This document shows positions 5,011 to 64,000 of a DNA stretch of 64,000 nucleotides, one piece after another (position 1 is the first letter of the stretch; each line of letters opens with the position of its first letter). Position numbers and translations under genes: made by a program. The DNA is from Phycisphaerae bacterium. Its GTDB lineage: Bacteria; Planctomycetota; Phycisphaerae; Phycisphaerales; UBA1924. Under the pieces are notes generated by a model. The model made no database searches. It worked only from the letters and a program-made list of their open reading frames with translations, and was not told the origin of the DNA. Location of the stretch: contig JAUIES010000001.1 in NCBI GenBank assembly GCA_030429705.1, positions 1 to 64,000 on the forward strand. The letters are read 5' to 3'.

Positions 5011-7581
5011 CTAATCTCCATTGATCACAATCATCGCTTCGAGTTCGTCTGCTTCAAAGCCGAACTGCTCCAGATGCGTGCGTGCTTCGCGCCTGAGCTC
5101 TTCAGCACCGGCTGCATCACCAGCCCGCTCTCGCACCGCCGTCTGTATGTTCATCGCGACCGCATAAGTCCGGGCATGTTGCCTCTTGTCGAGATATGGG
5201 ATCGCTTCGAGAGCGTGCGCGTCGGCAGCCTCATCTTCATCAATCGCCAACAGCGCCTGTGCCAGATACACCTGCACCGTCGTGATCTGAAAGTGCCCAA
5301 CCGACCAGTTTGAACGCCGCACCTCCAATGCTCGTTCGAGTACTTCGCTCGCATCAGAAAACTGCTCAGCGACCAGATACAACCTGCCAAGTTCATAGAG
5401 CGCGTTTCCAGATTGAATCGAATCGGTACCGTATTCGCCAGCAACAGATTCGACATCAGCAATCGCGTACGGGATGCCCTCTTGCGGTCGGCCGACGACA
5501 CCGTACGCCCGCGCAAGCGTTCGTCGTACAGACTCGGTCGTGAAATGATCGTGCCCGAGCACGCGACTGGATCGTTCATACGCATCAAGGAGCAGATCCA
5601 CCATTGCTTCATTCGGCTGGTAGACTGTCTGTGCTTCGCCATATAACACCATGGCATCAATCACCATGGTGTTGTCCGGGGGGTAATACGCTTTTGCAAT
5701 CTCGTACAGCCGTGCAGTCGTTTCGAGTTGCTTCTCGGGTGTGGGACCGAATCGCAAATTCATGCTATAGGCAAACAGCAACTGACAGTGGTCGGCAGGG
5801 TCGACGCCCGGCAGCCGCTCGTAGAGTCCGAGGATCCGCCTCTGGTTCGCCATTGAACCATCAGCCCGCTGCACAACGCGCAGTCGCTTCGGATCCTCTT
5901 CGGTATAGAGTGCTGCGGCTTCTTGATCGGCAAGTCGGATCTGATCTTTCCAACCCTCGAGCCCGTGTCCCCACAAAACATCGTGCAGCCGAACCCGCAG
6001 TTCAACAACCTCAGCACTCGGCACGCCGTAGTGCTTGACAGCGTACGCAAGAGCCTTTTTGATCGAAGCGACTCCTGCCTGGGTCTCGCCTGCATGGGTC
6101 TGAAACCAACCGATCCCCGCCAACATGTCAATCATGTGCTCGGGGTCTTCTTCGAGCCCCTCGGCTGCGCGGTCGGCGATTGCCTGCATGGTCCCCTCTG
6201 TCAAACCCGGCGAAGCCCCACGCACATTGGCATCCGCCGTCAGCAGAAGCATGTCGAGTAGAAAATCGCCGATGAATGCAACACGATCAGTACTGGCGAT
6301 AGCCCGATCGCGCTGCTGATTGGCTTCATGCCATTTCGTCCCGGCAATGACCAACGCCGCGACAAGTGCGATCCCCAAGATCCCGGCCAGCGACACCGAC
6401 GCTCTGTGCCGCCGCACAAACTTCCGCGCAACATACGAAACACTTGGGGGGGCTGCACTGATCGGTCGACCCGCCAGGAAATGACGAAGATCGTCGCCCA
6501 TTGCCATCGCCGACGGATAGCGCAGCTCCGGATCGGTCGCACAGGCTTTGAGCACGATGCGATCAAGATCGCCGCGCAGCGCTTTCGGATGGATCCGGGT
6601 ACTTGTGGTCTGCTCAGTCGCGATGCGACTCGGCCGGGTGATTCGAGATGTGGACCCATCGCTCGGGGTGGTCGCTGATTGCGACGCAGACCCCGTAGGC
6701 ACATCGCCCGCGAGAAGTTCACACAGCATGGCACCAAGTGCATAGACATCGATCCGCGTATCCGCAGTTTCTCCACCCGCGCGTTGCTCGGGGCTCATGT
6801 ACCGCGGCGTGCCGAGTCGCACACTCGCTTGCGTATGCGGGCTGGCAGGATCGGCATCAAGCAGTTTGGCGATGCCAAAGTCAATCACCCGAGGCCGAAG
6901 CACCGCACCGTGTTTCTCGACGAGCACATTGGCTGGCTTGAGATCGCGGTGAATGACCGCACGCTGATGCGCGTGGTGAACTGCGTCACACACATCGGCC
7001 ATGATTGCTACGCGCCGATTGACATCAAGATTGTGCGATTCACACGCGTGAACAAGTGAATCACCTTCCAGGAGTTCCATCGCAACAAATGGCTGTCCCT
7101 GTTCCGTCAGCCCGGCGTCATAGACCTTGGCAATCGATTCATGGCTCATCCGCGCCAGAAGCGCTGATTCGGCGCGAAAACGCATGATCGCGTCTTCGCT
7201 GACCAGTTCACGCCGCAATGCCTTGACCGCAACAGCTCGCTCGATCGGCGTTCGCTGCATCGCGCGATACACAATCCCGAACCCGCCGCGCCCGATTTCT
7301 TCACCAATCTCGTAACCGACGATGCGAGGCATCATTTCGATCGAACCGGCTTCGAGGTAAGCTGTCGAAAGGTCATCATGAACAGTGTCATCGAGCAAGA
7401 CACCCGCTGCACGATCATGGGCTTCAATCAGTTGCTCGACCGCATCGCGCAACTGCGGTGTCGAATCACCGAGTAACCGATCCACACGCTCGTCGAGATC
7501 CTGCGACCGCAACTCGAGCACTTCATAGAACAGCGCTTTGATTGCTCCAAGATCGTGCTGTGCGTTGGTGGAGTTGGTCAT
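5011..7581 (-). CDS. Membrane Ser/Thr protein kinase with TPR-like sensor region
   Basis: 856 residues. After an N-terminal helical segment the kinase domain spans about 90-370: glycine loop GRGGFG, catalytic Lys120 in VAVKAL, HRDLKPAN at 211-218, DFG at 234-236, and GTPRYMSPEQ in the activation segment. All catalytic residues are present. One transmembrane helix lies at about 394-413. The remaining 440 residues form helical TPR-like repeats (CHAT/MalT-like arrangement), expected on the other side of the membrane or as a scaffold. The ATG overlaps the stop of the ECF sigma gene upstream (ATGA), so the two are translationally coupled. Kinase-TPR proteins beside ECF sigma factors are a common planctomycete pairing. 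The kinase may phosphorylate or gate the sigma factor, which is inference. Confidence 0.9.
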   Translation of the reverse strand: MTNSTNAQHDLGAIKALFYEVLELRSQDLDERVDRLLGDSTPQLRDAVEQLIEAHDRAAGVLLDDTVHDDLSTAYLEAGSIEMMPRIVGYEIGEEIGRGGFGIVYRAMQRTPIERAVAVKALRRELVSEDAIMRFRAESALLARMSHESIAKVYDAGLTEQGQPFVAMELLEGDSLVHACESHNLDVNRRVAIMADVCDAVHHAHQRAVIHRDLKPANVLVEKHGAVLRPRVIDFGIAKLLDADPASPHTQASVRLGTPRYMSPEQRAGGETADTRIDVYALGAMLCELLAGDVPTGSASQSATTPSDGSTSRITRPSRIATEQTTSTRIHPKALRGDLDRIVLKACATDPELRYPSAMAMGDDLRHFLAGRPISAAPPSVSYVARKFVRRHRASVSLAGILGIALVAALVIAGTKWHEANQQRDRAIASTDRVAFIGDFLLDMLLLTADANVRGASPGLTEGTMQAIADRAAEGLEEDPEHMIDMLAGIGWFQTHAGETQAGVASIKKALAYAVKHYGVPSAEVVELRVRLHDVLWGHGLEGWKDQIRLADQEAAALYTEEDPKRLRVVQRADGSMANQRRILGLYERLPGVDPADHCQLLFAYSMNLRFGPTPEKQLETTARLYEIAKAYYPPDNTMVIDAMVLYGEAQTVYQPNEAMVDLLLDAYERSSRVLGHDHFTTESVRRTLARAYGVVGRPQEGIPYAIADVESVAGEYGTDSIQSGNALYELGRLYLVAEQFSDASEVLERALEVRRSNWSVGHFQITTVQVYLAQALLAIDEDEAADAHALEAIPYLDKRQHARTYAVAMNIQTAVRERAGDAAGAEELRREARTHLEQFGFEADELEAMIVINGD

Positions 7582-58868: not shown

Positions 58869-60335
58869 TTAGATCCCAAGCCCGTTTCGCAGCGCCTTCG
58901 TACGCTCGGCATATGTTGAGCCGCGTTGCGTGATCTGTGATGACATTGGTAATCTCGCTTCATCGCTCGGCTCAAGCAAGCGTAAAGCGCTCGTCTCCGG
59001 TGTGAGGCAGGCTTCCTCAAAACCAAGCCCGAGAAACTCCAAGAGGTGCCGCACAGTCGGTTCGGTATTCGCGGTCAAATCTTCGAACCGCAGCGTGTGA
59101 ACCTGCGCGCCAACCGACACAAGCAACGCGGACCAGTGCTCGCACAGCGCCACGACATCGCGCGTGTATGACCCGAGGTCTTCCAGATCGCGTGCAAAGG
59201 TCGCTCCGGTCACCGCGGCAAAAGTTGACATTGCAGCCTCGATCGGTTCACGCGTGCACAAGACAATCCGGGCATCAGGCATCATCAATGGCAGAAGACC
59301 TGCGTGGTAAACATTCATTGGCTGGGCATCGGCAACATGCGTCGTGCCGTCAGGGCAGAGCTTGTTGATCTCTTCCGAATACGCAGTTGCAGCCTCAGTC
59401 AATTGCTTGCCGCGCAGTCTGGTCGGATGGGTCACGACTCTGCGGAACGATGTGGTCTCTGCACCGAGTTTCCCGCGGCACACGGTTGCCAATGCCCCGA
59501 TTTCGCCACAGCCAAACCCGGTTGAATGGCTCGCGATGATGCCCTCGACCAGTTCGTGCCCACTCCCGGGAGGACCAATCAGAAACACATTTCGTTCACC
59601 ATGACCGGCCGCCCGGCTGATCTTGCCCAACGCAGATGGGGTGTATTGCTCTATCAATCCCTCGACGACCTTGTGATGACCAGCCGCGTCAAACTCACCT
59701 TTGGTCAGTTTGGCCGCACGACGCCATGCATCAAATGCTTGATCAGTCGCTCCGGTGCGCTCACACAGTTGACCGAGCACGCGCAAGAGCCTGGTGAGAT
59801 CAACTGCACTCGTCCCGATGCGTTTGGAAGCCTTGGATACGCGCTCCACACCAGATGCAGCATCGTCACCAAGCAAACACGCACGCCCCCAGGCAATCGC
59901 AAGCCCGACCGCATCATCGCCGTCCCAAGACTCGATCAGTTGTTTCGCTTCATCCAGACGACCGAGGTCGATCAACGCTTCTGCTTTGACGGCCTGTGCA
60001 TCTTCGTTCTCGGCGCCACAACCGATGGCTGTCTCGGCCATGTCCAGCGCCTCTTCTCCCCTGTGCAAACGGCGCAGGGCCGACGAGGTCTCGATCGCGA
60101 GAAACTGACGAACGCGATCATCTTCTGACTTTTCGAGCGCCTGCTTCATCAGGACGATCCCGGCAGCCGATCGGCCGAGTCGAGCGAGTGCCGCTCCGTG
60201 CAAGCCTCGGATCGCGGGTTCATCGGGAAGGTTCTGCACCAACTGTTGCGTCAGGCTCCCCGCTCGCGGGTATTCGCCCATGCGTAAGAGTCGTTGAGCT
60301 TCGTGAAACGCCTGGGCTGGTGTCAACTGCGTCAT
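58869..60335 (-). CDS. TPR-sulfotransferase fusion
   Basis: 488 residues. Residues 1-225 are TPR-like helical repeats. From about 245 a P-loop-like GPPGSGH (254-260) replaces the usual 5'-phosphosulfate loop of sulfotransferases (GLPRSGTT type). A later TREPIEAAMSTFA and LRFEDLTANTEPTVRHLLEFLGLGF are in line with Sulfotransfer_3 proteins. The conserved DKMP is DAQP here. It would transfer sulfate from PAPS if active. It sits between convergent atpC and divergent asparaginase. Confidence 0.78.
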   Translation of the reverse strand: MTQLTPAQAFHEAQRLLRMGEYPRAGSLTQQLVQNLPDEPAIRGLHGAALARLGRSAAGIVLMKQALEKSEDDRVRQFLAIETSSALRRLHRGEEALDMAETAIGCGAENEDAQAVKAEALIDLGRLDEAKQLIESWDGDDAVGLAIAWGRACLLGDDAASGVERVSKASKRIGTSAVDLTRLLRVLGQLCERTGATDQAFDAWRRAAKLTKGEFDAAGHHKVVEGLIEQYTPSALGKISRAAGHGERNVFLIGPPGSGHELVEGIIASHSTGFGCGEIGALATVCRGKLGAETTSFRRVVTHPTRLRGKQLTEAATAYSEEINKLCPDGTTHVADAQPMNVYHAGLLPLMMPDARIVLCTREPIEAAMSTFAAVTGATFARDLEDLGSYTRDVVALCEHWSALLVSVGAQVHTLRFEDLTANTEPTVRHLLEFLGLGFEEACLTPETSALRLLEPSDEARLPMSSQITQRGSTYAERTKALRNGLGI

Positions 60336-60419: not shown

Positions 60420-60947
60420 ATGCGCCACATCACCCTGATCTCAACCGGCGGAACCATCGAAAAGACTTATGACGAACGTGCGGGCACCCTCTCAAACGCT
60501 CGATCGATCGTTCCACGCATGCTCCGAAGACTCAAAATTGTCGATACAACGATCAACACCGTCCAACTGCTTTCTAAAGACAGCCTCGATCTCACAGACC
60601 AAGATCGGCAACGCATCGCCCACACCGTCATCACCGTTCTTGACCAACCCGACTGTGATGGCATCGTCATCTTGCACGGGACGGACACACTCGCCGTCAC
60701 CGGCGACCTGCTCGAACAGAATATCTCGACGCCACGCGTCCCCATCATTTTGACCGGCGCAATGAGGCCTTATGAGATGAAACGCTCGGATGCGCTTCAA
60801 AACCTCAACGAAGCAATCTTTGCTACCGGAGTGCTTGCGCCGGGCGTGTACTGCGTCGTGCACGGCCGGGCGCTCCGATTCCCAGGTGTGTACAAGGATC
60901 ATGCACGAGGCACATTCGCCACAGCAGACGACGAGAAACGAAGTTGA
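60420..60947 (+). CDS. Short asparaginase-like protein
   Basis: 175 residues, about half of a normal asparaginase, yet complete: it ends naturally at 60947, two bases from the stop of the next gene on the opposite strand. Thr12 (STGGTIE), Thr88/Asp89 (HGTDT), LTGAMRP and Lys159 (GVYKDHARGTF) keep the candidate catalytic set. Only the N-terminal domain is present. Such one-domain proteins are annotated as asparaginase-like; activity is uncertain. Confidence 0.8.
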   Translation: MRHITLISTGGTIEKTYDERAGTLSNARSIVPRMLRRLKIVDTTINTVQLLSKDSLDLTDQDRQRIAHTVITVLDQPDCDGIVILHGTDTLAVTGDLLEQNISTPRVPIILTGAMRPYEMKRSDALQNLNEAIFATGVLAPGVYCVVHGRALRFPGVYKDHARGTFATADDEKRS

Positions 60948-60948
60948 A

Positions 60949-62355
60949 TCAAATTGTTTTACGCGTCGGACGGCCCAGCGTGTTCGTCCAGCATCGCTGA
61001 ACTGTGCGCACGGCACCGAGCCCGACCCACCGAAGCATCATGCCGACGCTGTGCAGGCGAAGCACCAGACGAAGCCGACGCAGTGCTACATCGTCAGGGT
61101 CAACTCGTGCCGCTTGGCGCGCCCAATATCGGGCGCGGATCCACTCTTTTCGGCGCAGATGCGCCAGCGCCAGATTGTGCATCGCCGGAACAAATCGCGG
61201 ATTGAGCCTCAACGCAGCCTTGGCGCGGTCGGTCCCCCGATCAAAATCACCCAACTCAAGAAAAGCAACACTCAAGTTGTGTTCTGCGATGTGGTCCTTT
61301 GGTCGAAGAACGAGCACACGCTCAAAGACGCGCACACCCTCTGCAGCCATATCGGCATCGAGAAGCAGTTGACCCAACTCTTCCAGCACTTCCGCATCAC
61401 GGTTCGATTCGAGCCCGATACACGCCAGTTCCCCGGTCAGCAACTCTCTCGCCCGTCGCGTTGAATCCTCTTTGCCATCAGCCAGCAACAGCCCGGCCAA
61501 TCGACGGCGCGCATCCGGATGGTTCGGGTCCAGACGAAGCACAACATCAAACTGCACCGTGGCTTCGTCGTACCGTTCCAACCGATCAGCCAACTCACCA
61601 AGCGCAAAGTGTGCGTCAGGGTGATCGGGCTCGAGTTCAAGAATGCGGCGATACTTTTCACCAGCCTCGACAAATCTGTTCATCTCGACCAGCAAGTCGC
61701 CCAGATCGAGAAGCGTGTCAATATCGCCCGGATCCAATCGCAACTCGCGGTGATACAACTGACGCGCCCGTTCCTGACGGCCGGTCGCTGCGTACGCCTG
61801 AGCGAGCCTCGCGTTGACCCGCGCCATCTCCGGCGAGATTCGAGCGGTCTCGCGCAGACACCAGATCGCACGATCGAAATCTTTCCGATCCAGTAACGCA
61901 TCGGCCATCGCTGAATACAGATCCGGATTCTCAGGATCAGCCTGTTGGCCGAGGTAATACGCCAACTCCGCCGACTCATGATCGCCGAGTTCCGAATATG
62001 CATCGATCTTGTGCACAAAGGGAGATGCCGAGTTGGGTTCGAGTCGTTCGGCGATCTCGAGCCATTCGATTGCCTGGCTCGCTTTTTCGGCTCGAATCAA
62101 ATTGATCGCAACCGCGGTCGCAGACGATGCGTCCTGACGATCACGCAACTCGAAACTTGCGCGAAACGCCGTCGCTGCAGCATCGTGACGCTCTGCGGCT
62201 TCGAGTGTGAGACCAAGATTGAATTGCCATTCCGCCTGGTGTGGGTTCAGCGACAGCGCACGACGCAACTCGGTCTCGGCTTCATCCCACCGACCGGCTT
62301 CGTAGGCCTCGTGTGCCCGTTCAACATGCTCTTCCGCGTCGACCCAGTCGTTCAC
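60949..62355 (-). CDS. TPR-repeat protein
   Basis: 468 residues from GTG 62355 with GGAG five bases ahead; a TTG at 62379 would add eight residues. About ten tetratricopeptide repeats (for example AHEAYEAGRWDEAETELRRAL, NLGLTLEAAERHDAAATAF, ALGELADRLERYDEATVQF, NLSVAFLELGDFDRG). No signal peptide and only a weak hydrophobic stretch near the C-terminus. It probably acts as a scaffold. It lies 114 bases downstream of the pseudokinase gene on the same strand and may share its transcript. Confidence 0.82.
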   Translation of the reverse strand: MNDWVDAEEHVERAHEAYEAGRWDEAETELRRALSLNPHQAEWQFNLGLTLEAAERHDAAATAFRASFELRDRQDASSATAVAINLIRAEKASQAIEWLEIAERLEPNSASPFVHKIDAYSELGDHESAELAYYLGQQADPENPDLYSAMADALLDRKDFDRAIWCLRETARISPEMARVNARLAQAYAATGRQERARQLYHRELRLDPGDIDTLLDLGDLLVEMNRFVEAGEKYRRILELEPDHPDAHFALGELADRLERYDEATVQFDVVLRLDPNHPDARRRLAGLLLADGKEDSTRRARELLTGELACIGLESNRDAEVLEELGQLLLDADMAAEGVRVFERVLVLRPKDHIAEHNLSVAFLELGDFDRGTDRAKAALRLNPRFVPAMHNLALAHLRRKEWIRARYWARQAARVDPDDVALRRLRLVLRLHSVGMMLRWVGLGAVRTVQRCWTNTLGRPTRKTI

Positions 62356-62469
62356 GGCCACTCCAGACTCGGAAACCAATCGGCCCCCGATACCGGTATC
62401 GTATCCAGATTCTCAATTGGCATCAATACACGAAGCCGGACACTATCTGATCGATCTGAGGTCAATTCT

Positions 62470-63306
62470 TCACTCTTTCGGCGTTTCTGCGGTGCCAGAC
62501 CACGCCGAACGCAATCGATCAAGCACCACGCGGGCAGTCCCGGCTTTCGACTCAATCTCGGGTCGGCCGCCTAGCGAAGGGAGGGCCGCCAGTGCATCGG
62601 ACGCTGTCGAGAAACCCCCGGCAGGGTCGAGTGCAACTTCAAACCACTCATCCCACGCGCGATCGAGCCGCCGAACCAGCCGGCTGGCGCGAATGCGAGG
62701 CTCTTCCGCTTCCAGCCCGGTCAGCACCCAATAACCGATCATCGCGACCGATCGAATTTCATCGAGAACCACTTCCGGATCAACTTCCAGCAGCCCGTCG
62801 AGGCGACGCTGAAGCCCATATAGCTCAATCGTGATGCTGCCGTGCCTGTCCACAAACAGATCTGAACCCATCAGCGGTCCGTTACACAAACCTCGCTCAT
62901 GCGCGCAACGAATGGCATCCAACGCGTGAAGCAAGACTCGTTCAGTCTCTGCAGGCGACATCCGCCCACCCTTCAACTTGACCAATCGATCAATCGTTAG
63001 CAGCCCGTCTTCGTTGCCGAGATACGGCTCCGCAGCCCAAATGCAACGCTCGCCCTCGAACGCTGCCGGGTCGATCACGCGCCGAATGGACGGCAAATGC
63101 GCGTGAGAAAATGACTCGAGTGTCTCAATCCATGAAAGAAGCAGGACTCGAAGTCCTTTATCAAGATGAGGTGCAAATGCGTGGATCACCCAGTCATCAT
63201 GATTCTCTTCGTGCTGCGCAAGCCAACGCTCGCCGAAAGGCGAAGACTCAAGCGGGCGCACAAGTTGATAAGGTCCAACCACCCGCAACGGGTCTTGTGA
63301 AATCAT
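62470..63306 (-). CDS. Ser/Thr pseudokinase-like protein
   Basis: 278 residues from ATG 63306 (GAGG upstream; ATG 63324 possible). The fold follows a bacterial Ser/Thr kinase: a glycine-loop-like segment YQLVRPLESSPFGERWLA, then VIHAF where VAIK is expected (Lys replaced by His42), CNGPLMGSDLFVDRHG (141-156) where HRDLKPxN is expected, and ELYG (161-164) where DFG is expected. None of the catalytic residues is kept, so it should not phosphorylate. It stands ahead of a TPR gene on the same strand. A regulatory or binding role is inferred. Confidence 0.75.
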   Translation of the reverse strand: MISQDPLRVVGPYQLVRPLESSPFGERWLAQHEENHDDWVIHAFAPHLDKGLRVLLLSWIETLESFSHAHLPSIRRVIDPAAFEGERCIWAAEPYLGNEDGLLTIDRLVKLKGGRMSPAETERVLLHALDAIRCAHERGLCNGPLMGSDLFVDRHGSITIELYGLQRRLDGLLEVDPEVVLDEIRSVAMIGYWVLTGLEAEEPRIRASRLVRRLDRAWDEWFEVALDPAGGFSTASDALAALPSLGGRPEIESKAGTARVVLDRLRSAWSGTAETPKE

Positions 63307-63552
63307 CGACTGTTTCCTCGTCATCCCGAATGGTTCAACCTTGAACGATCAGGAATACCACCAACGCCAATCACCGTGCTCCCGTGTCATCCACGCAAGA
63401 CTCCATCCGTAGCGTTCTCGAACGCGGTTCGGTGCACGGTTGTTCGGGCCGATTCTACCAAGACCAAGATGCGTTTGCACACGATCCCCATCGCAGATCG
63501 GGAAATACCGTGAACATTTCAGGTTGGTAAGCCCTAATATACAACTGTGCAT
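63307..63552. other. Divergent intergenic region
   Basis: 246 bases between the pseudokinase (-) and the lipoprotein (+). A 74-codon minus-strand frame (63349-63573) ends WRWWYS and has no recognised relative; it is not called. Promoters for both genes should lie here, though no boxes are clear. Confidence 0.4.
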
Positions 63553-64000
63553 ATGCCACTCGCTCAACTTCATTCACACCTGCTCCCTTGTGTCATGCTC
63601 TTGATGGGATGCACCGAGCGGCCAGGCATGACGACATACGAACAATCCGTTGCACCAGAGACTCGGCCTCATCTAACCGGTATCAATTATCAGCCTGAAC
63701 TGACCAAATCACCAGAACAGACACCGCAGCCACAGGCCGAAGTGATCAACCAACCAGGCGGCATCCTCTTTCAAACACTCAGATCGCCAGAGACAGACTC
63801 TGAGCAGCGCAAGGCTGCCGCAGCATCACTACTCGATTCCTACAACCTCAACTGGGATGACATGAATGCTTATCTGCTCGAACCGCTCATTCGCGCAGCG
63901 GTGATTGATGCTGCGTCGCAGAACGCCGCCCGTTCGTCGAGTGTGCTTACAGAAACGACACCGGCTTCCGTCGGCCCTGACGATCGACAGCGATTGATTG
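63553..64000 (+). CDS. Lipoprotein, N-terminal part (cut by window end)
   Basis: The frame from ATG 63553 stays open to the last base (149 codons). A hydrophobic leader is followed by LLMGC, a lipobox with Cys near residue 20. The mature part is Gln/Pro/Thr-rich, then a helical section (QRKAAAASLLDSYNLNWDDMNAYLL). No family recognised. It is divergent from the pseudokinase gene. Confidence 0.7.
   Translation, partial: MPLAQLHSHLLPCVMLLMGCTERPGMTTYEQSVAPETRPHLTGINYQPELTKSPEQTPQPQAEVINQPGGILFQTLRSPETDSEQRKAAAASLLDSYNLNWDDMNAYLLEPLIRAAVIDAASQNAARSSSVLTETTPASVGPDDRQRLI

Follow-up and report, generated by a model that had tools for sequence, protein, structure and literature searches.

A pseudokinase family in Phycisphaerales and its genomic neighbours

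Seven bacterial Ser/Thr kinase families are described in a 2025 review as wholly or largely pseudokinases, five of them wholly, and Planctomycetes are unmentioned there (PMC12599244). Among the described systems closest to the locus considered here are MviN/ActPs3 and EssB/YukC, dead kinases in which the activation loop is deleted or reduced and which recruit partners (PMC12599244). The MviN pseudokinase domain of Mycobacterium tuberculosis works via its C-terminal tail and partner recruitment (PMC12599244). A gene in the window (the whole 64,000-nucleotide stretch of Phycisphaerae DNA analysed here) encodes a protein that, judged by motif alignment and a predicted structure, appears to resemble MviN and EssB/YukC in anatomy, although it departs from both in transmembrane (TM) regions, lineage and gene context. 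Loss of all three catalytic motifs and deletion of the activation loop are common to ActPs3/MviN and the protein studied here, but ActPs3/MviN proteins are actinobacterial and often sit next to a TM segment, whereas this is a soluble, stand-alone Planctomycetota protein with HGP and LYG motifs and no FHA partner seen. Hydropathy gives no C-terminal TM region of the ActPs3/MviN kind, and the lineage is that of Phycisphaerales records, not Actinobacteria. EssB/YukC of type VIIb secretion has a dead kinase fold, a degraded glycine loop and an attenuated activation loop (PMC12599244), which all have a counterpart here, but it is a Firmicutes transmembrane secretion component. The shared neighbours of the present family are metabolic, TPR and HEAT genes, with no secretion genes and no type VII context. 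The gene and the relevant parts of its product are as follows.

62470..63306, minus strand: pseudokinase gene, 278 aa, ATG start at 63306 (from translation and a family found in 133/163 genomes)
62569..63279, minus strand: kinase-fold domain, residues 10-246 (AlphaFold2 model; VIA Z 23.3 against PknB over residues 6-246)
63226..63228, minus strand: Arg27, in place of the beta-2 valine on the adenine side of the ATP pocket (profile alignment and column counts; Arg in 57/60 members)
63178..63180, minus strand: Ala43 at the VAIK Lys position (across members, Arg 42/60 and Lys 0/60)
62860..62886, minus strand: degenerate catalytic loop CNGPLMGSD, residues 141-149, at the HRDxKxxN position (profile alignment and column counts)
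62815..62826, minus strand: ELYG, residues 161-164, at the DFG position (column counts; Glu161 in 52/60)
62761..62814, minus strand: shortened stretch from LYG to helix F, activation segment deleted (length against active kinases of the same genome)
62509..62529, minus strand: basic C-terminal tail motif VVLDRLR, residues 260-266 (family pattern VLxRFR; low-confidence helix 259-270 in the model)

The first-pass annotation of this DNA described a complete gene that keeps kinase-fold landmarks. Completeness is right: the gene is full length, its frame is open and it belongs to a conserved family; an alternative ATG at 63324 would lengthen the product by 6 residues. Single-sequence searches with the window protein gave no Pfam match even at E 10, and the best phmmer match in the PDB is a kinase at only E 0.008, so that recognition of kinase homology needed profiles. 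A 36-member family profile searched against the PDB matches Snf1 kinase at 1.7e-15 and StkP at 9.6e-14 (profile positions 2-167), in an alignment that pairs HRDLKPEN with HGPLxxxEVLVD and DFG with LYG. Profile-profile comparison of the family with eight active kinases of the same genome gives 99% probability and E 3.7e-18. The AlphaFold2 model (30 input sequences) reaches pLDDT 84.9 and pTM 0.81. Foldseek ranks PknA/PknB first (2e-13), and the model superposes on PknB 2fum_B in VIA with Z 23.3 and 2.6 A over 228 residues, which bears out the claimed landmarks. A bilobal fold and detectable profile homology, the two marks of a protein-kinase fold, are both present. MviN and EssB are not among the matches listed by Foldseek and VIA (nor is MviN among those of the profile search of the PDB), where active kinases come first; this is not evidence against kinship. 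Individual members match PF00069 at E <= 0.01 in 20/36 cases (best 3.2e-8), and the window protein does not reach the curated cut-off of that model. Pfam searches with the 36 members returned nothing outside kinase families except one weak DUF4357 match. A PADLOC match to PD-T4-6 (E 6e-6) was dismissed as an identity and is read as generic kinase similarity. Hydropathy gives no transmembrane segment in the pseudokinase domain.

Residues that define an active Ser/Thr kinase (VAIK Lys, HRD Asp, catalytic Asn and DFG Asp) are missing from this fold. In the window protein, the VAIK Lys is replaced by Ala43, HRD by N142-G143-P144, the catalytic Lys by Met146, the catalytic Asn by Asp149 and DFG by L162-Y163-G164. 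The replacement of all of these positions, claimed earlier for one protein, extends to the family in an alignment of 60 members: the VAIK Lys, DFG Asp and HRD Arg are each retained in 0/60, the HRD Asp and the catalytic Asn in 1/60 each and the catalytic Lys in 3/60. Displacement of these residues to other positions was considered; the neighbouring landmarks HxH, LVDRHG and YG align in register in the profile alignments, so the catalytic residues do not look shifted. The glycine-rich loop is also lost. A further lesion, absent from the first-pass annotation, is the deletion of the activation segment, which follows from the length between LYG and helix F (15-23 residues in the family versus 33-63 in active kinases of the same genome). 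The product of 62470-63306 is confirmed as a pseudokinase with a Ser/Thr-kinase fold.

The remaining described families differ from this one in diagnostic motifs or in context. DYD pseudokinases likewise have Arg for the VAIK Lys (42/60 here, Ala in the window protein) and often lose the alpha-C Glu, but they carry an acidic DYD motif at the DFG position, keep the catalytic-loop Asn and are membrane-associated, whereas the present proteins have LYG, lack the Asn and are soluble. DLHK pseudokinases are similar in having no transmembrane region, degraded VAIK and DFG motifs and a conserved beta-2 arginine; they differ in retaining the HRD Asp and catalytic Asn, each kept in only 1/60 here, and in their frequent fusion to helicase domains, of which none is seen here. 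GLW pseudokinases have GLW at the HRD position and poly-Leu at VAIK, where this family has HGP and VxYR and the window protein NGP and VIHA. CP1 has a linked COG3899 domain, and the window protein stands alone at 278 aa with no second Pfam domain. As described, ActPs1 and ActPs2 differ in taxon and domain context (PMC12599244).

Several residues of the former active site are strongly kept, including Arg27, Glu161 and an acidic residue at position 149 (45/60), and their conservation in the alignment suggests that ligand binding could persist. These residues, and the Arg at the VAIK position in most members, would be accounted for if the protein were a SelO- or DLHK-like pseudoenzyme that had retained binding of a nucleotide or some other anion, or that catalysed a different transfer, through non-canonical residues. 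There is a parallel in DLHK pseudokinases, for which ATP binding via conserved arginines, two of which lie in beta-2, has been proposed (PMC12599244). Such a role is rather unlikely, however, given a lost glycine-rich loop, a DFG Asp and VAIK Lys that are never kept, a deleted activation segment and, in the window protein itself, Ala43 at the VAIK position.

Relatives were found by protein and profile searches of whole genomes; a pattern back-translated from the window protein alone retrieved none. With membership set at E 1e-18 or better for the 36-member profile, the family occurs in 133/163 genomes and 61/74 genera of the window's GTDB family, nearly always as a single copy. Sampling elsewhere in the order and the phylum turned up no member; outside the GTDB family, the best scores are <= 66 bits and are spread over ordinary kinases. 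Among the genomes sampled, the pseudokinase family is restricted to one GTDB family of Phycisphaerales. Named records of members, found from a sub-alignment, are Phycisphaerales, Phycisphaeraceae and Planctomycetota MAGs. Apparent N-terminal fusions at four loci (L071, L085, L091 and L098; ORFs of 469-980 aa) look, from their composition, like antisense shadow frames and were excluded. Pfam and NCBIfam hold no model for the family. This long-term, mostly single-copy conservation bears on whether the gene is a functionless, decaying kinase remnant, as loss of every catalytic motif might suggest. That view is scarcely credible: the frame is open over its full length, some positions are invariant, and a well-folded single-copy gene kept this widely contradicts decay.

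Gene neighbourhoods were compared at 60 loci and then across whole genomes. Two repeat-protein genes flank the pseudokinase gene in the window.

60949..62379, minus strand: TPR-repeat gene downstream of the pseudokinase gene (Pfam TPR; probable start GTG 62355, VNDW; order-wide family)
63547..64000, plus strand: 5' part of a HEAT-repeat lipoprotein gene, divergent from the pseudokinase gene and running past the window (from L079:5548-7158)

The HEAT match of the second gene is weak (E 8e-4, below the curated cut-off) and its N-terminus is lipobox-like; in most loci the start of this gene is signal-peptide-like or lipobox-like. Scans for promoters and terminators found nothing above shuffles. 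Beyond the TPR gene lies an asparaginase ORF (60420-60947, plus strand, 175 aa), convergent with it and ending one base before it, in which only the N-terminal domain model is matched (PF00710, 1.3e-32) and which is possibly truncated. At 58869-60335 (minus strand) lies a fusion of TPR repeats with a sulfotransferase domain (Sulfotransfer_3, 3.9e-20); this gene (cluster c30) is also found close to the TPR gene in the window's clade.

Conservation of the TPR neighbour beside the pseudokinase, raised as a check in the first-pass annotation, held in orientation and only in part in presence. Where both genes occur, TPR lies <=6 kb from the pseudokinase in 59/102 genomes, always on the same strand (59/59). 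A TPR gene is nearby in 28 genera. Co-occurrence has an odds ratio of 4.3 (p 7e-4, uncorrected for phylogeny). Adjacency is patchy, because it implies 14 changes across the pseudokinase tree. A TPR orthologue is absent at the threshold used from 31/133 pseudokinase genomes, and both TPR and HEAT are absent from 12, so neither is an obligate partner everywhere. The TPR and HEAT genes are bound more regularly to each other: HEAT lies <=6 kb from TPR in 97/106 genomes and never on the same strand. Gene order in the window is HEAT, pseudokinase, TPR, and the usual order elsewhere is pseudokinase, HEAT (convergent), TPR. Five sister families within the order have both genes too, and no pseudokinase family member was found in them. 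In 20/20 sister-family loci inspected, TPR stands head-to-head with an exported HEAT-repeat gene, and no kinase-like ORF (E 0.05) is near the pair. The pair therefore predates the arrival of the pseudokinase beside it in a single lineage; the standing partner of the TPR gene is the HEAT gene, not the pseudokinase. The same sister-family loci speak against an ancestral TPR-pseudokinase unit. The divergent TPR-HEAT pair (L145-L164), which is conserved across the order, is itself uncharacterised.

These comparisons also bear on the earlier proposal that the locus is a split, inactivated version of a kinase-TPR fusion, with the TPR half next door. A TPR gene does lie downstream on the same strand, and the same window has a kinase-TPR fusion at 5011. 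The proposal did not survive comparison, and such a split is highly improbable: the TPR protein shares nothing beyond generic repeats with the TPR portion of the 5011 fusion (E 0.07), and its family predates the association with the pseudokinase, being paired with HEAT across the order.

A different neighbour lies directly upstream of the pseudokinase on the opposite strand in 70/133 genomes: HppD in 47 and an HmgA-like protein in 23, divergent in 70/70. No TPR gene is nearby in 35 of these 70 genomes. HppD passes its equivalog cut-off (376.8 versus 277 bits), whereas the HmgA-like proteins fall far under that of HmgA (55.6 versus 510.75 bits) and are only distantly related to the model. HmgA-like proteins of about 440 aa (L072, L074, L087, L092 and others) are encoded by almost every genome of the GTDB family and are possibly a separate subfamily of homogentisate dioxygenase. 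A search for a shared upstream regulatory motif in 28 loci gave top 8-mers in 8 loci against shuffled maxima of 5-7; these were GC-rich and none is claimed. The link may be functional or may be inherited synteny. If co-expressed with the divergent hppD or hmgA-like gene from a shared head-to-head promoter, the pseudokinase could modulate or sense tyrosine/homogentisate breakdown, and the presence of two non-homologous enzymes of one pathway at the same position, often with no TPR gene nearby, argues for such a regulator. We consider this unlikely, nonetheless. The window's own clade does not show the arrangement, which may have been inherited as part of a larger syntenic block that includes trpB and a transporter; the upstream regions share no motif, and the HmgA-like proteins match their model far below the equivalog level.

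The pseudokinase is probably a binding or switch protein, not an enzyme, and we judge it reasonably likely that this catalytically dead protein serves as a soluble scaffold or an allosteric adaptor that acts by binding. Such a role fits because the fold is kept without catalysis. The protein would neither bind ATP nor transfer phosphate and would act through protein contacts, with the kinase fold offering a surface to a protein partner. The probable TPR start lies ~114 bp downstream of the pseudokinase stop, and the two genes of the window may be co-transcribed; their presumed co-transcription makes the TPR protein the first candidate partner. The earlier idea of a scaffold is thus reasonable, with the TPR protein as a putative partner only. 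A second contact could come from the C-terminal tail, where a VLxRFR pattern, defined only after inspecting sequences, occurs in the last 40 residues of 32/60 members versus 0.9 in shuffles and in 9/343 control windows. This basic tail comes after a low-confidence linker in many members and could dock on a partner or on the membrane. A broader scheme would combine several of these features: a pocket rebuilt around Arg27, Glu161 and the acidic residue 149 would bind a metabolite or nucleotide, signal that state to partners and link the breakdown of aromatic amino acids (hppD/hmgA) with the TPR-HEAT pair across the envelope. We regard such a ligand-sensing pseudokinase as very unlikely.

The pseudokinase family looks new, having apparently not been described before, and would be a further family of bacterial pseudokinases. 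Present in ~80% of the genomes of its lineage, with no active member found, it makes a clean example of a kinase fold retained for functions other than catalysis. The genes linked to it provide concrete candidate partners, namely the TPR protein, the exported HEAT-repeat protein, HppD and the HmgA-like protein.
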